Below are positions 5,083 through 47,779 of a DNA stretch of 64,000 nt, piece by piece. Location of the stretch: NCBI GenBank assembly GCA_001898625.1, contig MKUP01000023.1:186001-250000 (forward strand), read 5' to 3'. The position numbers and the translations under genes were made by a program. Under the pieces are notes generated by a model that was not told where the DNA came from, did not search any database, and saw only the letters and a program-made list of their open reading frames with translations. Every line of letters begins with the position of its first letter. The first letter of the stretch is position 1. This DNA is from Burkholderiales bacterium 67-32. Its GTDB lineage: Bacteria > Pseudomonadota > Gammaproteobacteria > Burkholderiales > Burkholderiaceae_B.

Positions 5083-5985
5083 ATGAAGCGCAGAGTCGTA
5101 GACATCCACCCGCACGTCATCAGCACCGATACCCGCGCCTATCCGCGCGATCCGTTGTGGGGCCGGCCATCGGTGTGGTCGCAGGAGCGGCCCGCCAGCA
5201 CGGAACAATTGCTGCAGGCCATGGACGAGGCGGGCGTGGCCCGGGCCGCCATCGTGCAGGCATCGACCTGCTACGGCCATGACAACAGCTACGTGGCCGA
5301 TGCGGTGGCGGCGCATCCCGATCGTTTCACCGGTGTCTTTTCCGTGGACATGCTGGTGGCCGACGCGCCCGCGCGCATGCGGCACTGGGTGGGGCGCGGG
5401 TTGACGGGGCTGCGCCTGTTCACCGCGGGCAGCACCGTGGAAGGGCAGGTTCCCGGCCTGGACGATCCGCGCAGCTTTCCCGCATGGGACTGCGCCGCCG
5501 ACCTGGGCCTGCCGGTGTGCGTGCAGATGCGCATCGCCGGCGTGCCGCAGCTGCGGGTGCTGCTGGCGCGCTATCCGCGCGTGCCCATCGTGCTCGACCA
5601 TTTCTTCGCGCTGCCGCTGGACGAAGGGCCGCCCTACGCGTCGGCGCAGGAGCTGTTCCGCCTGGCGGCGCATCCGAACGTCCATTTGAAGCTGACCCCG
5701 GTCATCCTGGCCAAGGCGCATCTGGGCCAGGCCAGTCCGCAATCCTTCTTCGGGCGCGCGCTGGCCGAGTTCGGCGCCGCGCGCATCGCCTGGGGCTCGA
5801 ACTTCCCCGCCACCGCGGGATCGCTGAAAACCCTCCTGGACGAGGCGCAGCAGGCGCTGGCCTGGGCGGGCGACGACGATCTCGCCTGGATCTTCCACCG
5901 GACGGCTGAACGCCTGTATCCGGCATTGCGGGCCGATGCCGGCCCGACCACGACTCACGACGACAGGAGCAAGGAGTCCGCATGA
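5083..5985 (+). CDS. Amidohydrolase family 2 protein (paralogue of 147-1001)
   Basis: A 300-residue metal-dependent hydrolase of the LigI/ACMSD-related amidohydrolase group. The start MKRRVVDIHPH puts the HxH metal motif at residues 9-11. VLDHFFALPL mid-sequence and WGSNFPAT near the C-terminus are the other family positions. Several N-terminal blocks are shared with the left-arm protein (for example HDNSYVADAVAAHP and FSVDML). The gene is 43 nt after the Bug receptor and overlaps the next gene by 4 nt, so the three are co-transcribed and probably act on one pathway. Confidence 0.8.
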   Translation: MKRRVVDIHPHVISTDTRAYPRDPLWGRPSVWSQERPASTEQLLQAMDEAGVARAAIVQASTCYGHDNSYVADAVAAHPDRFTGVFSVDMLVADAPARMRHWVGRGLTGLRLFTAGSTVEGQVPGLDDPRSFPAWDCAADLGLPVCVQMRIAGVPQLRVLLARYPRVPIVLDHFFALPLDEGPPYASAQELFRLAAHPNVHLKLTPVILAKAHLGQASPQSFFGRALAEFGAARIAWGSNFPATAGSLKTLLDEAQQALAWAGDDDLAWIFHRTAERLYPALRADAGPTTTHDDRSKESA

Positions 5986-36674: not shown

Positions 36675-37499
36675 TTACGGCTTGGCGTTGGGGAAGAACA
36701 ACTGCTGGCCGTCGATCTTGTAGCTGGCGATGGTCTGCTGGCCGGCCGGCGAAATGACCCAGTCCACGAACTTCTGGGCGGCCGCGACCTTGACGTGCGG
36801 ATGCTTGGCCGGATTGACCACCATCACGCCATACTGGTTGAACAGGCGCTCGTCCCCTTCCACGAGCACGGTCAGCTTGCCCCGGTTCTTGAAGCTGAGC
36901 CAGGTGCCGCGGTCCGACAGCACGTAGGCGCCGGTGGACGACGCCATGTTCAGCGCCGGCCCCATACCGCAGCCGCAGGCTTTGTAGCCGGTGCCCTTCT
37001 TGTCGTCCAGGCCGGCTTGCTTCCAGTAGCGCAGTTCGGCCGAGTGCGTGCCGCTCTTGTCGCCGCGGGAGATGAACTCGGCGTTCGCCGCCGACAGCTT
37101 CTTCAGCGCCTGGACGATGTCCTTGCCCTTGACGCCGGCGGGGTCGGCGGCGGGGCCGATCAGCACGAAGTCGTTGTACATGACCGGATAGCGCTTGACG
37201 CCGTAGCCCTCGGCGATGAATTTCTCCTCGGCGGCCTGGTCGTGCACGAACAGCACGTCGGCATCCCCGCGCCGGCCGGTGTCCAGCGCCTGGCCCGTGC
37301 CTTGCGCGACCACCTTGATGTCGATGCCGCTGGCCTTCTTGAAGGCGGGCAGCAGGTGGGCGAACAGGCCGGATTGCTCGGTCGATGTGGTCGAGGCCAT
37401 GACGATGGTTTCGGCGGCCGCGGGCAGGCTGGCCAGGGCTGCGGCCGCGGGCAGCAGACAGCCCAGGACCAGGGGGCGCAGGCGGTGGAAGAGCTTCAT
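36675..37499 (-). CDS. tupA: Tungstate ABC transporter substrate-binding protein TupA
   Basis: A 274-residue periplasmic binding protein. The signal peptide (MKLFHRLRPLVLGCLLPAAA) ends near AAAETI. The oxyanion motif TTSTEQSGLF at about residue 38 matches TupA-type proteins that bind tungstate very tightly, and SRGDKSGTH, GCGMGPALNMAS and YVLSDRGTWL follow as in the family. Related proteins may also bind molybdate or vanadate. It is the last gene of tupB-tupC-tupA, overlapping tupC by 4 nt, next to a formate dehydrogenase cluster that would use W or Mo. Confidence 0.88.
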   Translation of the reverse strand: MKLFHRLRPLVLGCLLPAAAALASLPAAAETIVMASTTSTEQSGLFAHLLPAFKKASGIDIKVVAQGTGQALDTGRRGDADVLFVHDQAAEEKFIAEGYGVKRYPVMYNDFVLIGPAADPAGVKGKDIVQALKKLSAANAEFISRGDKSGTHSAELRYWKQAGLDDKKGTGYKACGCGMGPALNMASSTGAYVLSDRGTWLSFKNRGKLTVLVEGDERLFNQYGVMVVNPAKHPHVKVAAAQKFVDWVISPAGQQTIASYKIDGQQLFFPNAKP

Positions 37500-38284
37500 A
37501 TTTTTTCTCCTTTGACGAAAAGACCGGCTTCCTCGGGCAGCGGCCCGTTGAAGAAGGCATGGACGGGAAGGTCCGCCAGGACGCGGCCCCGTTCCAGGTA
37601 GACCACGCGGCTGGCCAGGCGCTTGACCTGTCCCAGGTTGTGGCTGCTGAACACCATGGTCATCGTGCGCCCCGAGCGCGGCTGCGCGAATTCCTGCATC
37701 AAGGCTTCCACCTCGCGCTTGGCGTGCGGATCGAGATTGGCGGTGGGTTCGTCCAGCAAGAGGGCGTCCGCGTCCATGGCCCAGGCCTGGGCCAACGCCA
37801 CGCGCTGCTGCTGCCCACCGGACAGCGCCTTGGCGTTGCGGCCGGCCAGTTCGGCCATGTCGACGCGCGCCAGCGCGTCCATGGCGGACTGCCGCGCCTG
37901 GCGCCAGCCCATGCCCCGCAGCCACAGTCCCAGCGCGACATTGCTCCGTACCGAGGTGCGCAGCATGTGCGGCCGCTGGAACACCAGGGCCTGCCGATTG
38001 CGCGGCAGGCAGGAGACGGTACCCGAGGCGGGGGCGAGCAGGCCGTGCAGCACGCGCAGCAGCGTGCTCTTGCCGCTGCCGTTCGTACCGACCAGGGCGA
38101 CGCGCTCGCCCGCGTGGATGGACAGGTCGACCCCGTGCAGCGCGCGCACCTGCCCATAGTGCAGATCGACATCGCGCAGCGAGAACAAGGCCGGAGAAGG
38201 CGCCGGTTCCCGTACGTCCGCCACGGCCGGAATCGCGAGGGCCGGATCGGTGTCCAGGGGCATGATCGAGGCCGCGCGCTTCAT
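37496..38284 (-). CDS. tupC: Tungstate ABC transporter ATP-binding protein TupC
   Basis: A 262-residue ABC ATPase. Walker A is GTNGSGKST, the Q-loop is ALVFQRPHM, the signature is ALSGGQQQRVALAQAW, Walker B is LLLDEPTANLD and the H-loop is SSHNLGQ. It has a longer N-terminus (about 30 residues, Pro/Ala-rich) than typical, which may be partly untranslated. It overlaps tupB (4 nt) and tupA (4 nt), so the three form a coupled operon. Confidence 0.9.
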   Translation of the reverse strand: MKRAASIMPLDTDPALAIPAVADVREPAPSPALFSLRDVDLHYGQVRALHGVDLSIHAGERVALVGTNGSGKSTLLRVLHGLLAPASGTVSCLPRNRQALVFQRPHMLRTSVRSNVALGLWLRGMGWRQARQSAMDALARVDMAELAGRNAKALSGGQQQRVALAQAWAMDADALLLDEPTANLDPHAKREVEALMQEFAQPRSGRTMTMVFSSHNLGQVKRLASRVVYLERGRVLADLPVHAFFNGPLPEEAGLFVKGEKI

Positions 38285-39024
38285 GCGGCCGGATCCGGCA
38301 TGCGCAGCCACGCGGACAGGCCCGCGTCGCGCCGTTCGCGCCAGCGGCGCACCAGCGAGATCAGCGTGTTCAGCAGCAGCACCACGGCCAGCAGCACCAT
38401 GCCCAGCGCCACGGCCAGGGGCAGGTCGCCCTTGCTGGTCTCGAGCGCGATGGCCGTCGTCATGACCCGCGTGTAGCCTTCGATGTTGCCGCCGACGATC
38501 ATCACGGCCCCCACTTCCGAGACCGCCCGGCCGAAGGCCGCGATGAGGATGGTCAGCAGCGCGAAACGTTCATCCCAGGTCAGCAGCAGTCCGCGCATGA
38601 ACGTGCCCGCGCCCAGCGAACGCAGTTGTTCGCCATGGCTGCGGTCGGCATCCTCGACCACCTGCCGCGTCAAGGCCATGACCACCGGCAGCACCAGGAT
38701 GGACTGCGCCACCACCATGGCCTGGAACGAGAACATCCAGCCCAGAAACCCCAGCGGCCCCGAGCGCGACAGCAGCAGATAGACCAGCAGCCCCACCACG
38801 ACGGAGGGCAGGGCGAGCAGGGTATTGAGCAGCGTCAGCACGGCCCCTCGTCCCGGGAACCGCGCCACCCCCAGCCACGCCCCCAGCAGCAGCCCGGCGG
38901 CACAGGCCAGCACACAGGCACAGGCGCTGACCGCCAGCGACAACCTGACGATGTCGAGCAGGACGGGATCGAGAGAGAGGATGAGGCGCAGCGCTGTGAC
39001 CGCGCTTTCCGCAAGAGTGTTCAT
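38281..39024 (-). CDS. tupB: Tungstate ABC transporter permease TupB
   Basis: A 247-residue inner membrane permease with about six hydrophobic segments. The EAA-type loop is seen as SLGAGTFMRGLLLTWDERFALLTILIAAFGRAVSEVGAV (core around RAVSEVGAVMIVGG). This is the ModB/TupB class of permease. The start MNTLAESAVTALRL was chosen; longer versions would read into the leader with the regulatory motif. A GATATGAAGTG-type palindrome lies 51-70 bp upstream. Confidence 0.9.
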   Translation of the reverse strand: MNTLAESAVTALRLILSLDPVLLDIVRLSLAVSACACVLACAAGLLLGAWLGVARFPGRGAVLTLLNTLLALPSVVVGLLVYLLLSRSGPLGFLGWMFSFQAMVVAQSILVLPVVMALTRQVVEDADRSHGEQLRSLGAGTFMRGLLLTWDERFALLTILIAAFGRAVSEVGAVMIVGGNIEGYTRVMTTAIALETSKGDLPLAVALGMVLLAVVLLLNTLISLVRRWRERRDAGLSAWLRMPDPAA

Positions 39025-39074
39025 GCCATCTTCAAATGTGCCGCCCCAGCGTAGCGGAGTGAGGCAGACGAGGC

Positions 39075-39094
39075 GATATGAAGTGATGTGCATA
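39075..39094. promoter_or_regulatory. Shared palindromic motif, copy 1 (tup leader)
   Basis: GATATGAAGTGATGTGCATA, 51-70 bp before the tupB start. It matches the site at 47053-47072 in the fdh leader at 19 of 20 positions. It contains an imperfect inverted pair, TATG and GCATA. The upstream bases (ATACTTATG on the minus strand) could be the -10 region, so a protein bound here would block transcription. The divergent ModE-like regulator gene at 39366 is the natural candidate. Confidence 0.6.
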
Positions 39095-39100
39095 AGTATC

Positions 39101-39352
39101 CCACCCCCAAGCGGCCTTTGGCCGCTCCCCCTCAAGGGGGCGGCGCTGGCGGACCGGCAAAGCCGGATCCGCGGCGCCCTGGGTCTAGTACCCGTTTCTT
39201 GGTACGCCACACCGTTGCTACCGCTGGCAGATAACGAAGCACGGGTGCCCCAACCCAAGACAACGGTACTAGACCCAGGATGCGGAGGATCCGGCTCCGC
39301 CGGTCCTCTCGCATCGCCCCCTGGGGGGCGCGCGTCAGCGCGTAGGGGGGGG
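39101..39352. repeat. Composite GC-rich inverted repeat between tup and its regulator
   Basis: Two copies of a dispersed repeat stand head to head. The left copy (39101-39172, inverted) and right copy (39286-39350) share GCGGATCCGGCTCCGCCGGT-like and CCCCCTGGGG-like blocks. Between them an imperfect 25-bp inverted repeat (from 39178 and ending at 39280, with CCTGGGTCTAGTACC) encloses a unique core of about 50 bp. Similar single copies occur at 54744-54890 and 63227-63291. No open reading frame in it is supported. Confidence 0.8.
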
Positions 39353-39365
39353 CTATACTCCTCCA

Positions 39366-40475
39366 GTGCATCAAATCGAGCTCTCCTACACCTTCGGCGT
39401 GCCCCGCGCCAACGCCGCCTCCATCCGCAATCCGCTGATGGACCTGCTGTATGCCATCCGGGAACAGGGTTCGATCTCGGCCGCCGCCAAGGCCCTGGAC
39501 CTGTCTTATCGCCACGTCTGGGGCGAGCTCAAACGCTGGGAGAAAAATCTCGGGCACGCGCTGGTGATCTGGGACAAGGGCCAGCCGGCCCGGCTGACCG
39601 AGTTCGGCAACAAGCTGCTGTGGGCCGAGCGGCAGGCGCAGGCGCGGCTGGCGCCGCAGATCGGCGCCTTGTATGCCGACCTGGAGCGGGCCTTCGCGGT
39701 CGCCTTCGACGACGCGGCCCACGTGGTCGCCCTGCATGCCAGCCACGACGACGCGCTGGCTTCGCTGCGCGAGCACGCCGTGGCCAGCGACAAGCTGCAC
39801 CTGGACATACGCTTCACCGGCAGCGTCGACGCGATCAAGGCCTTGAACGAAGGCCGGTGCGTGATGGCAGGCTTCCACGCTCCCGCCGATTCCCCGCCGG
39901 GCTCGCTGGCGGAACGAACCTACAAGCCGCTGCTCGAACCCGGCCAGCACAAGATCATCGGCTTCGCCCGCCGCAGCCAGGGGCTGATGGTGGCGCGGGG
40001 CAACCCGCTGGGCATCGCCTCGCTGACCGATCTCGCGCGGGCCGACGTGCGTTTCGTGAATCGTCCGCTGGGCACGGGCACGCGCGTGCTGCTGGACGAA
40101 TTGCTGGCCAGGCAGGCGTTGTCGCCGTCGGCCATCCAGGGCTACGCCCATACCGAGCCGTCGCATGCGGCGGTGGCGCACGCGGTGGCCTCGGGCGCCG
40201 TGGACGCGGGCCTGGGCATCGAGGTCGCGGCCCGGGCCAGCCGGCTGGACTTCATCCCGCTGGTGTCTGAAAACTATTTCCTGGTCTGCCTGAAGTCGAC
40301 GCTGGAACTGCCGTCCACGCAAGCCTTGCTGGGCATCCTGCGCAGCGAGGCCTGGCAGCGCAAGCTGGCCGCGATGCCGGGGTACCAGCCGCAGCAAAGC
40401 GGCGAGGTGCTGTCGATGCGGCGTGTGCTGCCGTGGTGGAATTTCCGCACGCCCAAGGCCGGCAAGCGCGGCTGA
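39366..40475 (+). CDS. ModE-type HTH regulator with C-terminal substrate-binding domain
   Basis: A 369-residue one-component regulator. Residues 15-100 form a ModE N-terminal-like winged HTH (LLYAIREQGSISAAAKALDL and SYRHVWGELKRWEKNLG), and about residues 120-345 form a periplasmic-binding-like domain (QGLMVARGNPLGIASLTDLA, RFVNRPLGTGTRVLLDELL, HAVASGAVDAGLGIEVAA). Such proteins are annotated next to Tup/Mod transporters and probably sense tungstate or molybdate directly. The start is GTG; TATACT lies at 39354-39359, only 6 nt before it, so the mRNA may be leaderless. It is divergent from tupBCA. Confidence 0.82.
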   Translation: MHQIELSYTFGVPRANAASIRNPLMDLLYAIREQGSISAAAKALDLSYRHVWGELKRWEKNLGHALVIWDKGQPARLTEFGNKLLWAERQAQARLAPQIGALYADLERAFAVAFDDAAHVVALHASHDDALASLREHAVASDKLHLDIRFTGSVDAIKALNEGRCVMAGFHAPADSPPGSLAERTYKPLLEPGQHKIIGFARRSQGLMVARGNPLGIASLTDLARADVRFVNRPLGTGTRVLLDELLARQALSPSAIQGYAHTEPSHAAVAHAVASGAVDAGLGIEVAARASRLDFIPLVSENYFLVCLKSTLELPSTQALLGILRSEAWQRKLAAMPGYQPQQSGEVLSMRRVLPWWNFRTPKAGKRG

Positions 40476-40485
40476 AGCGGTCCGG

Positions 40486-41367
40486 TCAGGCGTCCTGCGG
40501 CGCGGCTCGAACGGGGCGGGGCGCCGCGGCCAGTTCCGGCTGCAGGACCAGGCGCCAGGGCGCCGTATAGCAGAGGAAATGCTTGTTGGTAGCGCGGCCG
40601 ATCGCGCACAGGCCCAGCCGCTCGGCCAGTTCGAAGCCCATCTGCGTGATGCCGCTGCGCGAGACGACGATGGGAATGCCCATCTGCGCCGCCTTGATGA
40701 TCATCTCGCTGGTGAGCCGGCCCGTGGTGTAGAACACCTTGTCGTGGCCCGCCATCCGGGCCGGGTCCTGCAGCCACATCCATCCTGCGATGGTATCGAT
40801 GGCGTTGTGGCGCCCGACGTCCTCGACGAACATCAGCATGTGCTCGCCCTGGAACAACGCGCACCCGTGCACGGAGCCGGCGGACTTGTAGGTGGTTTCC
40901 TGCCGCCGGATGGCGTCCAGCAGGCCGTAGAGCTGGCCCTGGGTGAGGCGCGCGTCGTCGGGCAGGCGGATGTCGTCGATCTCGTCCATCAACCCGCCGA
41001 AGACGCTGCCCTGGCCACAGCCGGTGGTGACCACGCGCTGGGAGGTGCGGGCTTCCAGGTCCTGGATGCCGTGGCGTGTCTGCACCGCCGCCGCCTGGAC
41101 TTCCCAATCGACGGTGACCGCCTCGACCTCGTCTATCGAGCGCACCAGGCGCTGGTTGCGCAGATAGCCCAGCACCAGCAGTTCGGGCAGGGCGCCCAGG
41201 GTCATTAGCGTGACCAGTTCGCGCTTGTCGACGTAGACGGTCAGCGACCGTTCGGCCGGGATGGAAACCGTGTCGCTCAGGCCATGTTCGTTGACGACGG
41301 TGATCTCGCGCGTCAGCGGCGCACGAGCGTCGGTCAGGAAAGGACGGTGGCGGAGCGATGCGGTCAC
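40486..41367 (-). CDS. fdhD: Formate dehydrogenase accessory sulfurtransferase FdhD
   Basis: A 293-residue FdhD homologue, which transfers sulfur from IscS to the Mo/W cofactor of formate dehydrogenase. Blocks are VVNEHGLSDTVSIPAERS, LVLGYLRNQRLV, TTGCGQGSVFG, TYKSAGSVHGCALF and FVEDVGRHNAIDTI, all family-typical. The Cys loop reads T-G-C-G-Q-G, so only one Cys of the E. coli C-x-x-C is present; in E. coli the first Cys is the important one. The GTG start overlaps the upstream stop (GTGA), which decides the start and shows translational coupling with the fdh operon. Confidence 0.92.
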   Translation of the reverse strand: MTASLRHRPFLTDARAPLTREITVVNEHGLSDTVSIPAERSLTVYVDKRELVTLMTLGALPELLVLGYLRNQRLVRSIDEVEAVTVDWEVQAAAVQTRHGIQDLEARTSQRVVTTGCGQGSVFGGLMDEIDDIRLPDDARLTQGQLYGLLDAIRRQETTYKSAGSVHGCALFQGEHMLMFVEDVGRHNAIDTIAGWMWLQDPARMAGHDKVFYTTGRLTSEMIIKAAQMGIPIVVSRSGITQMGFELAERLGLCAIGRATNKHFLCYTAPWRLVLQPELAAAPRPVRAAPQDA

Positions 41368-41738
41368 TGTTTGGGCGTGGCGGCGTCGGGCGCGGCGGTG
41401 TTGTGCGGCGCCTTGGCTGTTTCCGAAGGGGAATGCGCGCCGGCCGCTTCCAGCGGCTTGGCCTCGGGTGGCGTGTAGGCGAACGGGCCCGGATCGGCGC
41501 AAGGCGGCATGGACGCGGGCTCGTGCACGGACTTGCCGGCGGCGCGCGCGCTGGCGAAGTAGACGGACGCGGTCTTGTTCTGGGCCTGGCAGAGTTTGTA
41601 GCCGTCGACCTTGCCTGTCCAGGCGGTACGGGCGGCGGCCTCGGCCGCCTTGGCCTGGGCCTCGGGGCTGGGCGGAGGCAGCTTGGCCAGGGCCGCGGTG
41701 GAGAAGACGGCCAGCAGCAGCGCGAGGGCGGTTTTCAT
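41364..41738 (-). CDS. Small exported protein of the fdh operon, function unknown
   Basis: A 124-residue protein with a clear signal peptide (MKTALALLLAVFSTAALAK). The mature part has an Ala/Glu-rich helix (PEAQAKAAEAAARTAWTG), a pair of Cys (KLCQAQNKTASVYF and MPPCADPG) that could form a disulfide, and a Pro/Ala-rich tail. I do not recognise a family. Its place between the cytochrome subunit and fdhD, with a 4-nt overlap to fdhD, suggests a periplasmic role for the formate dehydrogenase complex. Confidence 0.75.
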   Translation of the reverse strand: MKTALALLLAVFSTAALAKLPPPSPEAQAKAAEAAARTAWTGKVDGYKLCQAQNKTASVYFASARAAGKSVHEPASMPPCADPGPFAYTPPEAKPLEAAGAHSPSETAKAPHNTAAPDAATPKQ

Positions 41739-41767
41739 GCGGGATCTCCTGGTCGAGGCCGGCGGGT

Positions 41768-42934
41768 TCAGGCGTTCGCCGGCCGGGTGTCCGGCTTCTT
41801 CTGCGCAGGCTGGGTGCGCTGGGCGGGGATCTTGCCCGCCTGGATATCGTTGTACCAGAGTTCGTGGTGCTCGCGGGCCCAGGCCTCGTCCACGTAGCCG
41901 GTCTTCATGGCCTTGTAGGCGCCTTTCATGCCTATGGTGCCCAGGTAGATGTGACCCAGGAACATGCACATCATCAGGATGGTCGCCACGGCGTGGACCA
42001 TGTGGGCGATCTGCATGGTGCCGCGGGTGTAGACCAGGCCGGGAATGACCCGGTCCAGCACCAGCCCGGAGCCGATGACGATGAAGCCCAGGAACAGCAC
42101 GCCGCCCCAGAATACGAGCTTTTCTCCGGCGTTGAAGCGGCCGGTGGGCACGTGCTGGCCGTTGAACAGTCCGCCGCCCTTGCGCAGCCAGACCATGTCG
42201 TCGCGCGTGGGCAGGTTGTCGCGGATGAAGGTGAAGAAGACCACCACCAGCGAGACCGCGAACAGCGGGCCCACGAAATTGTGGCCGGTCTTGAGCACCC
42301 AGGTCATCCAGCCGAACAGGGCGCTGCCCATGATGGGCAGCAGGAAGAACTTGCCGAAGGCCATGATCAGGCCCGAGATCGCCAGGATCACGAACGCGGC
42401 GGCATTGACCCAGTGGGCCGCCCGCTCGAAATACGTGAAGCGTTCGATCTTGCGGCCGGTCTCGGCGCCGTGGACGGTCAGCGGGCCCTTGGCGAAGTAG
42501 AACAGCGCGATGGCCACCAGCACGATCAGCAGCAGCGAACCGCCGTAGGGGATCAGCCAGTTGTTGCGCACCTGCCGCCAGGCTTCGCCGGCCGAGGTGT
42601 ATTTCGAGCCCGGGTACTGCACGAAGCGCTGGATCAGCACGCCGGCTTCCGGGGCTTCGCTGCGCGGCAGGCTGCTGTAGCCGGGCTGGCCGGAATTGAC
42701 CAGGCGCCAGTTCGGCGCGTTGTTGCCCGGCTGGACCTTGGCCCGTTCGGCGTTGGTCTGGTCGGCATAGCCCGGGTCCTGGCTGGCGTCGGGCTTGACG
42801 TCGAAGATGTTGGTGCTCTGGATGGCACCCAATGAGGTGCCGGCAGGGGGCTGCGCGGCATCAGCCGCCAGGGCGGCGGGGGATGCCAGCATGGCGCCGA
42901 ACAGCGCGAGCGCGGCAAGTAGCGACCGTATCAT
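41768..42934 (-). CDS. Formate dehydrogenase subunit gamma (cytochrome b)
   Basis: A 388-residue membrane subunit that passes electrons from the Fe-S subunit to quinone. An N-terminal signal peptide and a periplasmic stretch of about 120 residues precede the four-helix cytochrome b domain (YFERAAHWVNAAAFVILAIS, TGHNFVGPLFAVSLVVV, MVHAVATILMMCMFLGHIYL). The His residues of these helices are candidates for heme b ligands. The length and N-terminal extension match betaproteobacterial FDH gamma rather than the shorter E. coli FdnI. Confidence 0.93.
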   Translation of the reverse strand: MIRSLLAALALFGAMLASPAALAADAAQPPAGTSLGAIQSTNIFDVKPDASQDPGYADQTNAERAKVQPGNNAPNWRLVNSGQPGYSSLPRSEAPEAGVLIQRFVQYPGSKYTSAGEAWRQVRNNWLIPYGGSLLLIVLVAIALFYFAKGPLTVHGAETGRKIERFTYFERAAHWVNAAAFVILAISGLIMAFGKFFLLPIMGSALFGWMTWVLKTGHNFVGPLFAVSLVVVFFTFIRDNLPTRDDMVWLRKGGGLFNGQHVPTGRFNAGEKLVFWGGVLFLGFIVIGSGLVLDRVIPGLVYTRGTMQIAHMVHAVATILMMCMFLGHIYLGTIGMKGAYKAMKTGYVDEAWAREHHELWYNDIQAGKIPAQRTQPAQKKPDTRPANA

Positions 42935-42946
42935 GGCGACCTCCGG

Positions 42947-43180
42947 TCAGTTCACCCGGTTGTATTCGTTCTGGCCTTGCTGGGCCCGGGTCTTGAGTTC
43001 CTGTTCCCAGCTGTTCCGGTCGCCCGGCGTCCAGCCAGGCGCGGTGAAGGCCGAGACGCCGGTGCCCTTGTACGCGGGCTCGCCGTTCTGGACCTTGCCC
43101 TGGTAGAGCGACTGTTCCCGTTCGGTGCAGGCGGCGGTGCCGAGAACGAGCAGGATGGCGAGAAAGACGGTGGCTTTCAT
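42947..43180 (-). CDS. Small lipoprotein of the fdh operon
   Basis: A 77-residue protein with a lipobox (LGTAAC, Cys18). The mature part is short and polar (EREQSLYQGKVQNGEPAYKG, SWEQELKTRAQQGQNEYNR). Its ATG shares one base with the upstream stop (TGATG), so it is translated with the Fe-S subunit. No known family. It may help assemble or anchor the periplasmic FDH. Confidence 0.8.
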   Translation of the reverse strand: MKATVFLAILLVLGTAACTEREQSLYQGKVQNGEPAYKGTGVSAFTAPGWTPGDRNSWEQELKTRAQQGQNEYNRVN

Positions 43181-43824
43181 CACTTGCCTCCGGTGGTGGT
43201 GCCGCCCGGCTGGGGATTCTGCGGCGGCTGGCCGGCCTGCTTGGAGCCGTAGGCCGTGCCCCAGCCCCAGACTTCGGCGCCCTTGCCGCGCGCGACGACG
43301 CGGGTGCGGAAGATGTCGGCGATCACGTCGCCGTCGCCGCCCAGCAGCGCCTTGGTCGAGCACATCTCGGCACAGGCGGGCAGCTTGCCCTCGGCCAGCC
43401 GGTTGCGACCGTACTTCTCGAACTCCGCTTCGCTGCCATGGGCCTCGGGGCCGCCGGCGCAGAAGGTGCACTTGTCCATCTTGCCGCGCACGCCGAAGTT
43501 GCCCTGCGAGGGGAACTGCGGCGCACCGAACGGACAGGCGTAGGAGCAATAGCCGCAGCCGATGCAGGTGTCCTTGTTGTGCAGCACCACGCCTTCGTCG
43601 GTGTGGTAGAAGCAGTTGACGGGGCAGACCGCCATGCAGGGCGCGTCGCTGCAGTGCATGCAGGCCACCGAGATGGATTTCTCGCCCGGCACGCCGTCGT
43701 TCAGCGTGACCACGCGCCGGCGGTTCACGCCCCACGGCACCTCGTGCTCGTTCTTGCAGGCGGTGACGCAGGCATTGCATTCGATGCAGCGCTCCGCATC
43801 GCAGATGAATTTCATTCTGGCCAT
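43180..43824 (-). CDS. Formate dehydrogenase Fe-S subunit beta
   Basis: A 214-residue four-cluster ferredoxin subunit. Cys motifs are CIECNACVTAC (C13-C23), CMHCSDAPCMAVCP, CIGCGYCSYACP and CTFC...CAEMC. It transfers electrons from the catalytic subunit to the cytochrome. It lacks the C-terminal membrane anchor of E. coli FdnH, which is usual in this group, where the beta subunit is a short FdxH-type protein. The gap to fdhA is 10 nt. Confidence 0.94.
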   Translation of the reverse strand: MARMKFICDAERCIECNACVTACKNEHEVPWGVNRRRVVTLNDGVPGEKSISVACMHCSDAPCMAVCPVNCFYHTDEGVVLHNKDTCIGCGYCSYACPFGAPQFPSQGNFGVRGKMDKCTFCAGGPEAHGSEAEFEKYGRNRLAEGKLPACAEMCSTKALLGGDGDVIADIFRTRVVARGKGAEVWGWGTAYGSKQAGQPPQNPQPGGTTTGGK

Positions 43825-43834
43825 GGCGCGCTCC

Positions 43835-46807
43835 TTATGCCTTCTCGATGTTGCAGATGGTGGTCTTGGTTTCCTGCATCATGGTGACGCTGTCGTAGCC
43901 GTAGGTGGTACCGGTGTTGACCGCCTCGCCGCGCACGATCGGGGCCGCGCCCTCGGGGTAGTAGGCCAGGAGATCCTTGCCCTGCCAGCGGCCGGCGAAG
44001 TGGAAGGGCATGAAGGCGGTGTCCGGGCCGACCCGTTCGGTGACCAGGGCCTGCACGTTGAGCCGCGCGCCGGTGGGCGTGACCACCCAGCAGCGCGAGC
44101 CGTTGGTGATGCCGCGCTCGGCGGCCGCCTTCGGATTGATCTCGACGAAGCTTTCCTGTTGCAGCTCGGCCAGCCAGGGATTGGACCGGGTTTCGTCGCC
44201 GCCGCCCTCGTATTCGGTCAGGCGGCCGGAGGTCAGGATGATGGGGAATTTCTCGTACAGCTTGTCCTCGACGTTCTTCTGCTGCAGCGACTTGTACAGC
44301 GTCGGCAGGCGCCAGAAGGTTTTCATGTCGTCGTGGGTGGGGTACTTGGCGACGAGGTCGGGACGCGTGCCGTAGATCGGTTCGCGGTGCTGCGGGATGG
44401 GATCGGGGAAGTTCCAGACCACCGCGCGCGCCTTGGCGTTGCCGAAGGGGTGGCAGCCGTGGTTCTTCATCACCACGCGGATGATGCCGCCGGACAGGTC
44501 GGTCTTCCAGTTCTTGCCCTCGGCCGCGGCCTTCTCGGCGTCGGTCAGTTCGTCCCACCAACCGAGCTTCTTCATCAGCACGTGGTCGAATTCCGGATAG
44601 CCGGTGGGGATGTCGGCGCCCTTGGAGTGCGAGCCGTCTTCGGCCAGCAGGTTGACGCCGTTGCGCTCCACGCCGAAGTTCGCGCGGAAGTTGCCGCCGC
44701 CGTCCATGACATGGCGGGAGGTGTCGTACAGGTTGGGCGAACCGGGGTGCTTGAGCTCGGGCGTGCCGAAGCAGGGCCAGGGCAGGCCGAAGTAGTCGCC
44801 CTGGATGTCGTAGCCGGTTTCCTTGTCGACCACGCTGCCCTTGGCGCGCAGGGTCTTGACGTCGAAGGCGTGCATCAGCCGCATGTGGGCCTTGAGCCGT
44901 TCCGGGCTTTGGCCGGTGTAGCCGATGGTCCAGTTGCTGCGGTTGATCTCGCGCAGGATGTCCTCGATCACCGGCTCGTCCTGACCCTTGACCTTCTGCA
45001 TCTTGTAGTTCTTGCACAGCTCGGTGCCGAAGCCGAGTTTCTGCGCGAGCTGGTACATGATCATGTGGTCGGAGCGGCTGTCCCACAGCGGATCGATGAC
45101 CTTCTCGCGCCATTGCAGCGAGCGGTTCGAGGCGGTACAGGAGCCGCTGGTCTCGAACTGCGTGGCCGCGGGCAGCAGGTAGACGGCGCGGTTGGGGTTC
45201 AGGTCCTCGCTCTTGCCGGGCATGGCCGCCATCGCGGCGGTGGCCGACGGGTACGGATCGACCACGACCAGCAGGTCGAGCTTGTCCATGGCCCGCTTCA
45301 TTTCCAGGCCGCGCGTCTGCGAGTTGGGCGCATGGCCCCAGTAGAAGACGGCGCGCAGGTTGGAGTCCTGGTCGATGACGTCGTTCTTTTCCAGTACGCC
45401 GTCTATCCAGCGCGAGACGGTGATGCCCGATTTGGTCATCATCGCGGGCGAGGCGTAGCGGCCTTTGATCCAGTCGTAGTCGACGTCCCAGACCTTGGCG
45501 AAGTGGCGCCACGAGCCCTCGGCCAGGCCGTAGTAGCCGGGCAGCGAATCGGGGTTGGGGCCGATGTCGGTCGCGCCCTGCACGTTGTCATGACCGCGGA
45601 AGATGTTGGCGCCGCCGCCGGATACGCCGACGTTGCCCAGCGCGAGCTGCACGATGCAGGAGGCGCGCACCATGGCGTTGCCGATGCTGTGCTGGGTCTG
45701 GCCCATGCACCACACCAGCGTGCTGGGGCGGTTCTCGGCCATGGTCTTGGCGACGTTGTAGCAGGTGGCCTCGTCCACGCCGCAGGCATCCAGGACCTTG
45801 TCCGGCGTCCACTTGGCCAGGACGTCGGCCTTGACCTGGTCCATGCCGTAGACGCGGTCGTTGATGTACTTCTTGTCTTCCCAGCCGTTCTTGAAGATGT
45901 GGTACAGCACGCCGAACAGGAAGGGGATGTCGGTGCCGGACCGGATGCGGACGTAGTGGTCGGCCTTGGCGGCCGTGCGGGTGAAGCGGGGGTCGGCGAC
46001 GATGACCTTGCAGCCCTTTTCCTTGGCGTGCAGCAGGTGCAGCATGGACACCGGGTGGGCCTCGGCGGCGTTCGAGCCGATGTACAACGCAGCCTTCGAG
46101 TTCTGCATGTCGTTGTACGAGTTGGTCATGGCCCCGTAGCCCCAGGTATTGGCTACGCCGGCGACCGTGGTCGAATGGCAGATGCGCGCCTGGTGGTCGC
46201 AGTTGTTGCTGCCCCAGAAGCTCATGAACTTGCGCAGCAGGTAGGACTGCTCGTTGTTATGCTTGGACGAGCCGATCACGTAGACCGAGTCCTGGCCGCT
46301 TTCCTTGCGCAACTGGAGCATGCGGGCCGAGATTTCGTCCAGCGCGGTGTCCCAGCTGATGCGCTGGTACTTGCCGTCGACCAGCTTCATCGGATAGCGC
46401 AGGCGGTGCTCGCCGTGGCCGTGCTCGCGCACCGAGGCGCCCTTGGCGCAGTGCGCGCCCAGGTTGATGGGCGAATCGAACACCGGTTCCTGGCGGACCC
46501 AGACGCCGTTCTCGACCACGGCGTCGATCGCACAGCCCACCGAACAGTGCGTACAGACGGTGCGCCTGACTTCGACCTTGCCCTTGCCGATGCCGGCCTT
46601 CTGGTCGCTGTCGGCCGCGCCGGCCTTCCTGACCAGGCCGAGCTGCGTGGCGGCGAGCCCCGCGCCGACGCCCAGGCCAGAGCGGCGCAGGAAGGTGCGG
46701 CGGTCCATGGTGGGCAGCGCGTGGGCCATGCCGCGGCGCAGGCTGTGGACGAACGAGGAAGAAGCTGCGCCGGAGTCGCCGGCGCCCGTTTTCTTGGTCA
46801 GCAACAT
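43835..46807 (-). CDS. Formate dehydrogenase catalytic subunit alpha (Cys type, TAT-exported)
   Basis: A 990-residue molybdopterin enzyme. The twin-arginine motif is D-R36-R37-T-F-L, after a 34-residue extension that is typical of the group; the GGAG 6 nt upstream supports M1. The [4Fe-4S] ligands are C85, C88, C92 and C120. The active-site residue is C210 followed by H211 in HQARICHSTT, encoded TGC, so no selenocysteine is used. Later blocks such as GVSGGGANIFRGHDNVQG match periplasmic respiratory FDH. It oxidises formate to CO2 on the outer side, with Mo or W bis-MGD; the adjacent tupBCA favours W. Confidence 0.97.
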   Translation of the reverse strand: MLLTKKTGAGDSGAASSSFVHSLRRGMAHALPTMDRRTFLRRSGLGVGAGLAATQLGLVRKAGAADSDQKAGIGKGKVEVRRTVCTHCSVGCAIDAVVENGVWVRQEPVFDSPINLGAHCAKGASVREHGHGEHRLRYPMKLVDGKYQRISWDTALDEISARMLQLRKESGQDSVYVIGSSKHNNEQSYLLRKFMSFWGSNNCDHQARICHSTTVAGVANTWGYGAMTNSYNDMQNSKAALYIGSNAAEAHPVSMLHLLHAKEKGCKVIVADPRFTRTAAKADHYVRIRSGTDIPFLFGVLYHIFKNGWEDKKYINDRVYGMDQVKADVLAKWTPDKVLDACGVDEATCYNVAKTMAENRPSTLVWCMGQTQHSIGNAMVRASCIVQLALGNVGVSGGGANIFRGHDNVQGATDIGPNPDSLPGYYGLAEGSWRHFAKVWDVDYDWIKGRYASPAMMTKSGITVSRWIDGVLEKNDVIDQDSNLRAVFYWGHAPNSQTRGLEMKRAMDKLDLLVVVDPYPSATAAMAAMPGKSEDLNPNRAVYLLPAATQFETSGSCTASNRSLQWREKVIDPLWDSRSDHMIMYQLAQKLGFGTELCKNYKMQKVKGQDEPVIEDILREINRSNWTIGYTGQSPERLKAHMRLMHAFDVKTLRAKGSVVDKETGYDIQGDYFGLPWPCFGTPELKHPGSPNLYDTSRHVMDGGGNFRANFGVERNGVNLLAEDGSHSKGADIPTGYPEFDHVLMKKLGWWDELTDAEKAAAEGKNWKTDLSGGIIRVVMKNHGCHPFGNAKARAVVWNFPDPIPQHREPIYGTRPDLVAKYPTHDDMKTFWRLPTLYKSLQQKNVEDKLYEKFPIILTSGRLTEYEGGGDETRSNPWLAELQQESFVEINPKAAAERGITNGSRCWVVTPTGARLNVQALVTERVGPDTAFMPFHFAGRWQGKDLLAYYPEGAAPIVRGEAVNTGTTYGYDSVTMMQETKTTICNIEKA

Positions 46808-46822
46808 GCCGTGCTCCGGTGG

Positions 46823-47029
46823 TTAGACCAGCGTGGACTTGTAGTAGCGCTTGACGTGATCGGTCACGCTGTAGCCGCCGCCCCGTTCGGGGGCGGGCTT
46901 GGCGTCGGCTTGCGGGGCCGGGTCGGGGCGCAGCGAGGGCGCGACGGCGGCTCCGACGGCAGCGGCGCCCGCGGTGGCGGCACCTACGAAGAAACCCCGG
47001 CGGGATAGGTTGGCGGCGGTCTTGGGCAT
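46823..47029 (-). CDS. Small TAT-signal protein at the head of the fdh operon
   Basis: A 68-residue protein with a twin-arginine motif (LSRRGFFVG) and hydrophobic stretch AATAGAAAVGAAVAP, then a Pro/Ala linker and YSVTDHVKRYYKSTLV at the end. The start ATG 47029 has GGAG 6 nt upstream. It is a known companion annotated as a formate dehydrogenase region TAT target. It may help export of the alpha subunit. The gap to fdhA is 15 nt. Confidence 0.85.
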   Translation of the reverse strand: MPKTAANLSRRGFFVGAATAGAAAVGAAVAPSLRPDPAPQADAKPAPERGGGYSVTDHVKRYYKSTLV

Positions 47030-47052
47030 CTCTGTCTCCGTTGGGGCTGGCA

Positions 47053-47072
47053 GATATGAAGTGCTGTGCATA
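47053..47072. promoter_or_regulatory. Shared palindromic motif, copy 2 (fdh leader)
   Basis: GATATGAAGTGCTGTGCATA, 24-43 bp before the start of the first fdh gene. It differs by one base from the copy in the tup leader (39075-39094). The following palindrome GTAACCGGTTAC at 47084-47095 is next to it. Both may set the regulation of the fdh operon. Confidence 0.6.
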
Positions 47073-47149
47073 CTGTACCCCCGGTAACCGGTTACAGGCA
47101 ATGCCGCAAGCCATTCCGGGCCTCGGGTATACCCTCGACCGTAGCGCTT

Positions 47150-47779
47150 TCAGGGCAGCATGTCGAAGCCCTGCGCCTCCACGCTGGCGAAGGCCCGTGT
47201 GAACTCGCCCAGCGCCGCGTAGAAGCGGGCGCGCGGGTGGGCCGAGAGGGCGTCGCACATGGCGGGTACCCACGGCAGCAGGTGGTCGCCGAAGAATTTC
47301 CGCTGGTTGGCCAGGTGGCACTGCCCGGCGTCGTCCCCGGCGATCAGGTAGCGCATGACTTCGCACAGGTAGGCGATGTGGTCCTCGGTCTCGGGCATGG
47401 CCGGATCCCGGGCAAGGTCCAGGGCGGCGAGGTCGTTCCTCAGCCCGATCAGCGATTTCTCGTTCAGGAAACCGTTCAGGTAGTGCGAGCCGTACAGGTA
47501 GACCTCGGGCTTGCCCAGGCCGCCGAACAGGGCTTCGTATTCGTCGCGCAGCGCCGTATCGTCGGCAGCCTGCGCCGCGGCCACGAGGTCGCGCCACGGG
47601 GTTTCCAGGAAGGCGCCCGCCATGGGGGCCTCGGTGGCCGCCGCGCGCAGGCTGGCCGCGAAGGCCGCGTCGGGCGGCGCGTAGAACAGGCGGGCCAGCA
47701 CGCCGTAGAGTTCGGCCCGGGCGATCTCCTCGTCGAGCGAGGCCGAGCCGATGTCGGCAGGGGAGATGGATGCGTTCAT
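47150..47779 (-). CDS. TorD/DmsD-family chaperone for formate dehydrogenase
   Basis: A 209-residue all-helical redox-enzyme maturation protein. Family blocks are ARAELYGVLARLFYAPPD, EYEALFGGLGKPEVYLYGSHY with the E-x-x-x-L-F...P-x-x-S pattern, and ETEDHIAYLCEVMRYLIAG with the E-x-D-H motif. It should bind the TAT signal of FdhA until the cofactor is loaded. It overlaps the polyferredoxin gene by 4 nt and precedes the fdh leader. Confidence 0.9.
   Translation of the reverse strand: MNASISPADIGSASLDEEIARAELYGVLARLFYAPPDAAFAASLRAAATEAPMAGAFLETPWRDLVAAAQAADDTALRDEYEALFGGLGKPEVYLYGSHYLNGFLNEKSLIGLRNDLAALDLARDPAMPETEDHIAYLCEVMRYLIAGDDAGQCHLANQRKFFGDHLLPWVPAMCDALSAHPRARFYAALGEFTRAFASVEAQGFDMLP

Follow-up and report, generated by a model that had tools for sequence, protein, structure and literature searches.

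Genetic organization of the locus

The DNA analyzed here, hereafter the window, is a stretch of 64,000 nucleotides from Burkholderiales bacterium 67-32, a genome that appears Pigmentiphaga-like from its closest named relatives. It carries a tungstate uptake operon (tupBCA), a membrane formate dehydrogenase operon (fdhX-fdhABC) and, divergent from tup, the gene of a putative regulator. A 20-bp sequence, GATATGAAGTGMTGTGCATA, is found at 39075 and at 47053, in front of the two operons. To judge from its distribution among relatives, this motif is very probably the landing site (operator) of the regulator encoded at 39366-40475, and the genome comparisons give good support to a single regulon in which tungstate uptake is joined with formate oxidation. 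The elements concerned are:

39075..39094, no strand assigned: operator 1, with its core TATGAA-N6-TGCATA at 39077-39094; upstream of tupBCA; from motif search and relatives
47053..47072, no strand assigned: operator 2, with its core at 47055-47072; upstream of fdhX-fdhABC; from motif search and orthologous fdh loci
39366..40475, plus strand: regulator, 369 aa, with a PF00126 helix-turn-helix (HTH) at residues 25-81 and PF12727 (PBP_like) at 141-325; divergent from tup
38281..39024, minus strand: tupB, tungstate ABC transporter permease; NF038017 over cut-off, NF041773 at 172.7 bits against a cut-off of 320
37496..38263, minus strand: tupC, ABC ATPase, by PF00005 and translation; start codon uncertain
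36675..37499, minus strand: tupA, tungstate-binding protein; NF041772 at 238 bits against a cut-off of 400, PBP_like_2; STTSTE and RGDKSGT retained
46823..47029, minus strand: fdhX, 68-aa twin-arginine translocation (Tat) target of the formate dehydrogenase region; first gene after operator 2
43835..46807, minus strand: fdhA, catalytic subunit of formate dehydrogenase (molybdenum/tungsten-pterin); PF00384, PF01568 and PF04879, with TIGR01591 below cut-off
43180..43824, minus strand: fdhB, 4Fe-4S subunit; the longer open reading frame (ORF) 42947-43780 is in the wrong frame
41768..42934, minus strand: fdhC, cytochrome b gamma subunit; TIGR01583 over cut-off
40486..41502, minus strand: fdhD, FdhD sulfurtransferase, by PF02634; true start probably internal

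A rare motif in front of two operons

The two copies differ at one position out of 20 and both stand upstream of minus-strand genes, as a sequence-only reading of this DNA had noted. The first ends 50 bp upstream of the tupB ATG (39024), and the second 23 bp from the ATG (47029) of the small Tat-target gene preceding fdhA. The 20-mer is an imperfect palindrome, with the arms TATGAA and TGCATA (TATGCA on the other strand) separated by a 6-bp spacer. Recent duplication of a single promoter was rejected as their origin, because the sequences flanking the two copies show no match. The spacer GTGMTG is common to both window copies; among relatives, the tup and fdh spacers differ, and what the sites share is the core TATGMA-N6-TKCATA with a 6-bp spacer of varying sequence.

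When up to three mismatches were allowed, the 20-mer was matched twice in the window (0 in 100 shuffles) and twice in the whole genome (6.66 Mb, 34 contigs, 99% complete), while the reversed control gave no match; the motif is therefore not a common one scattered over unrelated places. Chance was accordingly rejected as an origin, on genome rarity for the 20-mer and on the 80 relatives described below for the core beside the regulator. A loosened, less specific form (TATGNA-N6-TNCATA) yielded three sites in the genome vs two for the reversed control. The third (C25:361784) is located between a second regulator gene, whose product is 40% identical to the first, and an operon for an fdsGBA-type nicotinamide adenine dinucleotide (NAD)-formate dehydrogenase. 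TATGMA-N6-TKCATA with one mismatch gave 14 sites vs three in the reversed control. Besides the two exact sites and the fds site, nine of the 11 regions were read by eye, without a tungsten or molybdenum gene being recognized in them; the sites C10:741089 and C23:357353 lay outside this reading.

One of the one-mismatch sites of this genome adjoins two genes, one boxC-like and the other for a BoxR-like protein with an HTH and a shikimate-kinase domain, and fits the BoxR operator. The core precedes boxC-like genes in two genera, with one mismatch in L261 (2942) and exactly in L180 (4592). Such matches are probably BoxR operators with the same TGCA-N6-TGCA spacing; TGCA-N6-TGCA, which is contained in some of the sites, is the BoxR operator motif.

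Conservation beside tup and the regulator gene

The motif is conserved in sequence, spacing and position, and it co-occurs with the regulator gene. The search that the sequence-only reading had proposed found the core again in relatives upstream of the regulator gene, of fdh and of aor, the gene of a tungsten-containing aldehyde oxidoreductase (AOR). The best 80 of 347 loci of regulator relatives were scanned from 400 bp upstream of the regulator gene to 40 bp inside it. An exact core was detected in 68 of the 80 and a core with at most one mismatch in 75, compared with 0.6% exact cores in random control windows of the same loci. Only the 6-bp spacing is used, as no exact core at spacings of 3, 4, 5, 7, 8 or 9 bp was found in any of the 80. 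Five loci have no site near the regulator; three of them (L014, L058 and L064) carry an exact core at another place in the locus, and the other two (L059 and L063) a one-mismatch core only. The tup genes were present in 76 of the 80 loci and an fdhA orthologue in 12, although many of these stretches are truncated at contig ends. Site and tupB could both be placed in 71 loci, and the site ended 36-58 bp upstream of tupB in 57 of these. The distance from the site to the regulator start ranged from 11 to 294 bp. In 39 of 75 tup/regulator loci (e.g., L048 3307 and L076 9990) it was 11 bp, which places the right arm over the start codon of the regulator itself (GTGCATA) and suggests self-control.

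Similar results were obtained with wider samples. In an independent order sample of 399 genomes (AOR by PF02730, regulator by a cut-off of E 1e-80), the exact core was present in 14 of 24 regulator loci and a core with at most one mismatch in 20 of 24, counted over whole loci of about 4 kb; this cut-off also admits rows from the fds side of the regulator tree (L233-L236, L233 itself being tup-linked). In a family sample of 101 genomes, strict TATGAA-N6-TGCATA occurred in all eight genomes with a close relative of the regulator and in 13 of the 93 others, with nine sites for the reversed control over all 101; of the 93 others, 61 hold a more distant match to the regulator. Only one of the 16 strict sites in those 13 genomes, in an FdsR-fds locus (L097), has a tup, fdh, fds or aor gene within 1.5 kb. 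Finally, the core TATGMA-N6-TKCATA is carried by 24 of 25 named regulator-bearing genomes, in one to four copies each (50 sites vs four reversed).

Conservation at fdh, aor and other genes

With an orthologue cut-off of E 1e-200, FdhA was found in 12 of the 101 family genomes. The exact core is present upstream of fdhA in all eight with a close regulator relative and in none of the four without one, where the best matches have two to four mismatches; three of these four carry distant regulator relatives (28-36% identity). Regulator-bearing genomes provided 22 rows of fdh loci, three of them same-genome duplicates; all 19 distinct loci have the exact core, as do 17 of 17 when L173 and L176, which came via the motif, are left aside. 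In the 16 rows where fdhX was found, the site stands 21-28 bp before it. In two genomes the fdh site is unlinked to tup, lying ~340 kb from the tup site in Polaromonas C04 and ~820 kb from it in Burkholderiales 8X.

The window genome itself gave no AOR match in the PF02730 search. Within the order sample, AOR is present in 40 genomes and the regulator in 25, and both occur together in 14 vs 2.5 expected. The best 30 of 47 AOR matches were scored as loci, and a core with at most one mismatch preceded aorA in 10 of 13 from regulator-bearing genomes vs three of 17 from other genomes (Fisher 0.0017). The count over all aorA loci (26/43) mixes loci found through the regulator or the motif with the order sample, and includes one site under two names (L046 = L169). 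One relative encodes a ModE-like protein with HTH and TOBE domains (L174, 2434-3237), at a distance of ~1.2 kb from an AOR operon bearing a core site.

Of the sites away from the tup/fdh block in the 25 named genomes, 17 in 15 regions were examined. Ten of the 17 precede a fitting gene: AOR in four cases (Curvibacter, Ottowia, Comamonadaceae 2FH and Parazoarcus), fdhX-fdhA in two, NAD aldehyde dehydrogenase in two (Rhodoferax and Parazoarcus), fds in one (the fdsGBA of Curvibacter, which has no neighboring FdsR) and a molybdenum hydroxylase in one. The last is an exact core of Ottowia beijingensis (L170 4493), flanked by the gene of a GAF/Fis-type regulator and by the hydroxylase operon, which encodes 2Fe-2S and MoCoBD subunits. 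Aldehyde dehydrogenase was rejected as a general target, the exact core being present in five of 17 scored orthologous loci (3/15 without the motif-found L278 and L285; 19 matches in 38 genomes, of which L289 and L296 were unscored because of their ends) and thus lineage-restricted; an earlier, smaller set had given four of five. The aldehyde dehydrogenase sites always lie 204-227 bp upstream of the gene.

A plasmid of Diaphorobacter sp. HDW4B (L297) encodes a regulator 47% identical to that of the window and has two likewise altered sites, at 5961 and 12712: TATGCTCCAGAGTTCATA before a TupA-like gene, one mismatch away from the core, and TATGCTCAAGCGATCATA before the fdh genes, two mismatches away. 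The plasmid cluster comprises two moeA-like genes, the TupA-like protein, the diverged regulator and the fdh operon.

The regulator and its sensor domain

The sequence-only reading had called the protein a ModE-type regulator with an HTH and a binding domain, and this description holds for one half of it. The HTH is LysR/ModE-like, as it matches the LysR-type model PF00126 (41.1 bits, cut-off 26.6) and also, below its cut-off, the ModE HTH model TIGR00637 (39.8 bits vs 98.5). The other half is not that of ModE: in the Pfam search of the protein no TOBE and no HTH_17 domain was detected, a PF12727 PBP_like sensor follows the HTH, and the protein belongs to a clade that stands beside an fds-linked one. 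The LysR substrate-binding domain PF03466 is likewise not listed at E 0.001. Both fdh/fds-linked paralogues of the genome have the same HTH plus PBP_like plan. A confident structure model of the regulator (mean predicted local distance difference test score 91, predicted template modelling score 0.74) had full-length LysR-type regulators as its best Foldseek matches, with TM scores of 0.4-0.5 and the domains placed differently.

In a tree of 57 proteins, midpoint-rooted and with bootstrap not fully settled, the regulator falls in a 41-row clade (97/95) in which all labelled rows are tup-linked. The remaining 16 rows comprise a 14-row fds/fdh clade (100/99), L233, which is tup-linked, and L234; the regulator is not inside the fds-linked clade of this tree. 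By its placement, it is a tup-linked relative of FdsR and not FdsR itself. Its identity to the fds-linked proteins of the family sample is ~34-43%, and the core is found again near the genes of the fds clade, in 19 of 23 with no more than one mismatch (shuffles ~1%). The two clades differ at residue 128, located just before a sensor-domain helix, which reads D in all 32 rows of the tup clade and G in all 13 rows of the fds clade that were compared (six of the 51 rows, outside both sets, were excluded), and at residue 266, mostly S in the tup clade and T in the fds clade. These differences are consistent with different ligands. The residues R118, T124 and D170 of TupA are described in PMC5517513. 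The regulator alignment, compared with that of TupA by hhalign, matches it weakly (probability 14.5%), with R233/T239 of the regulator facing R145/T151 of the TupA encoded in the window.

Predicted promoters and proposed mode of control

Conserved hexamers around the sites were used to place putative promoters:

39048..39053, minus strand: TACGCT, predicted -10 element for tup, 23 bp past operator 1 and downstream of it
47072..47101, minus strand: TTGCCT-N18-TACAGT, predicted fdhX promoter; the -10 contains the beginning of operator 2, which would extend over the start site

At tup, the hexamer TACGMT is favoured at offset +41 (z 3.2, 48 dereplicated loci), second to the operator's own end. 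At fdh, a -10-like TACAGT/TACATT at offset -5, overlapping the first base of the site, is favoured in 16 dereplicated loci (z 5.8), and the -35 of fdhX (TTGCCT) is weakly supported. At aor, AACAAT is favoured 9 bp before the site (z 3.8, 25 loci). A perfect 12-bp palindrome, GTAACCGGTTAC, is present at 47084-47095, between the putative -35 and -10 of fdhX, and the same sequence or close variants occur in L003-L006.

We consider it reasonably probable that one operator-regulator system governs tungstate uptake together with tungsten/molybdenum enzymes through a metal-reading sensor and with opposite signs, where binding, ligand, promoter positions and sign are all predictions from sequence. The regulator would bind TATGMA-N6-TKCATA at tup and at the enzyme genes, namely those for the membrane formate dehydrogenase in the window and, among relatives, for AOR, NAD-formate dehydrogenase and (in certain lineages) an NAD aldehyde dehydrogenase. 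Its sensor domain would read intracellular tungstate (or molybdate/tungstate); a metal response of the regulator is likely. At tup, the operator would lie upstream of the -10, an activator-like position, while at fdh and aor it would cover the region just after the -10, a repressor-like position. Because the positions differ in this way, opposite signs are the simplest logic: the metal-free protein would switch uptake on and keep the enzymes off, and metal binding would reverse both. Bound at these positions, the protein would activate tup and block fdh and aor, which makes sense as tungsten economy if it is the metal-free form that binds. Two points favour tungstate as the signal: tup is the commonest partner of the regulator gene (76/80 vs 12/80 for fdhA), and the motif also stands before the genes of AOR, a tungsten enzyme whose chemistry does not involve formate. 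The single metal-responsive regulon proposed in the sequence-only reading is partly supported: tupBCA and the fdh operon share one operator, which tracks the regulator gene in the Burkholderiales genomes examined, including two with fdh unlinked from tup.

A more extended version may be entertained tentatively, namely a tungsten-gated enzyme switch in aerobic and facultative Burkholderiales, in which one PBP-sensor regulator, with a DNA-binding part different from that of TaoR of Desulfovibrio, would use one operator at opposite promoter positions. Under scarcity, uptake would be on, and tungsten-formate dehydrogenase and tungsten-aldehyde oxidoreductase off. In some lineages, the regulator could also control an NAD aldehyde dehydrogenase serving as a tungsten-free substitute. 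The FdsR sister may have switched from oxyanion to formate sensing, or the reverse, with scaffold and operator kept, and one genome could hold three regulator/formate dehydrogenase pairs that possibly cross-talk.

Alternative explanations

The signal could instead be formate or another small carboxylate, the same operator and regulator serving an FdsR-type protein that raises formate dehydrogenase and tungstate supply together. In favor of this, FdsR/P_H16_RS03165 of Cupriavidus necator is formate-inducible, 4.5-fold with a Km of 130 uM, according to Table 1 of PMC7057948, and, as described above, the fds-linked proteins share the domain plan of the window regulator at ~34-43% identity and have the same core near their genes. 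However, the fdhA orthologue is far less frequent beside the regulator than tup, the motif stands before an enzyme that lacks formate chemistry, and residues 128 and 266 differ between the clades; a formate signal is in our view unlikely, though still a live alternative. It is also rather unlikely that the regulator is a general tungsten on-switch driving uptake and enzymes in the same direction, with the promoter geometry wrongly placed. The promoter positions do rest on weak consensus matches, but the operator stands 36-58 bp before tupB and mostly 21-28 bp before fdhX, the conserved hexamers are placed differently, and aor and tup are reportedly controlled in opposite directions by TaoR of Desulfovibrio. 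A classical ModE (HTH plus TOBE) or some other protein might also own the operator, the neighboring regulator gene being incidental; the HTH-TOBE protein near an AOR site in L174, the TGCA-N6-TGCA of the BoxR operator within some sites, and the two matches at boxC-like genes speak for such a binder. Against it, the arms are often TGAA/TTCA rather than TGCA, the fdh and aor sites follow the presence of the regulator, and at E 0.001 the Mop model TIGR00638 has no match in the window genome or in two same-genus genomes with both sites. Classical ModE was on this ground rejected as the binder in the window genome, and we regard this explanation as very improbable.

Several observations nevertheless count against a tungsten-reading system of opposite signs, in addition to the formate response of FdsR. 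The counts are made without phylogenetic independence. One of the 25 regulator-bearing genomes has no exact core anywhere. Three of the 13 AOR loci in regulator-bearing genomes are without the core, and seven of the 17 extra sites (L171, L175, L178, L179, L180, L181 and L182) stand before no tungsten, molybdenum or aldehyde dehydrogenase gene; the site before the molybdenum hydroxylase of L170 indicates that the regulon is not necessarily restricted to tungsten. Two of the three regulator paralogues of the genome adjoin formate dehydrogenases without tup. The sensor residues at the positions of TupA R118 and T124 are kept in both clades and so leave the choice of ligand undecided. Lastly, the promoter elements are weak matches, and at tup and aor the best -10-like offset is the operator's own end, which belongs to the motif itself.

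Neighboring features and paralogues

Two further features complete the description of the locus:

47150..47779, minus strand: torD-like chaperone gene, by PF02613; upstream of operator 2
39100..39350, no strand assigned: dispersed inverted-repeat element of ~250 bp, between operator 1 and the regulator gene

Operator 2 is flanked by the TorD-like chaperone gene and the small Tat-target gene, both on the minus strand. The latter, fdhX, scored 40.1 bits with TIGR02811 (cut-off 48.45) on the longer ORF 46823-47101, and its product had no match in the Pfam search. The repeat has 69 matching pieces in the genome, counting both strands and partial copies; as this DNA is a dispersed repeat, the part that resembles the shared control region is confined to the interval between the operator and tupB. 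The genome has three regulator/formate dehydrogenase neighborhoods in total. Next to each of the two further regulator genes, and divergent from it, runs a separate NAD-linked formate dehydrogenase operon (L086, 5571-6671 and from 6816; L256, 4921-10697), and the third paralogue (L256) adjoins a formate dehydrogenase with NuoE/F-like and molybdopterin subunits.

Relation to known systems and significance

FdsR of C. necator, which its gene context marks as a regulator of this kind, presumably has the HTH_1 plus PF12727 domain plan. It resembles the fds-linked clade beside the tup-linked one in controlling a formate dehydrogenase operon, and that clade has the operator core TATGNA-N6-TNCATA in common with the window system. 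FdsR differs in being formate-inducible and in adjoining fds rather than tup. TaoR is reported to activate aor and to repress tup (Rajeev et al. 2019). This regulator of Desulfovibrio vulgaris, the closest precedent, combines an HTH with a PBP-like sensor and regulates aor and tungstate uptake (PMC11980592 and PMC10102598), and it is apparently the tupR (DVU3193) of PMC10102598. The PBP-like domain and a regulon with tup and aor are shared with the present system, aor here by motif only and in relatives. However, TaoR-like proteins carry HTH_17 (PMC11980592), while the window protein has a LysR/ModE-like HTH.

ModE of Escherichia coli and relatives has a similar HTH, as the TIGR00637 score indicates. 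Its operator consists of two TATAT-like arms with a similar short gap, while the arms here are TATGMA/TKCATA, and it has TOBE sensor domains that are absent here. The HTH_17 domain of the TaoR-like proteins is excisionase-like. TunR of Desulfovibrio also governs a tungstate-responsive regulon; unlike the window protein, it combines a recombinase-like DNA-binding domain with a ModE-like sensor. Our literature search, which left out most subscription papers (the work of Rajeev et al. may hold predictions on related proteins), recognized no description of the operator or of a Burkholderiales tungsten regulon, no regulator of metal supply to AOR or tungsten-formate dehydrogenase in betaproteobacteria, and no tup, AOR or membrane formate dehydrogenase regulon of FdsR.

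The motif gives a testable operator for tungsten control in betaproteobacteria, whose AOR and tungsten-formate dehydrogenases are studied as catalysts reducing CO2 and acids. It predicts which formate dehydrogenases are linked to tungsten, a property that is hard to tell from sequence. It also sharpens the question of the ligand, as two related regulator clades have one operator core, one clade with a formate-responsive member and the other probably metal-responsive. Metal supply and the production of the metal enzyme appear to be wired together, and the same signal is found before other tungsten or molybdenum enzymes in relatives.

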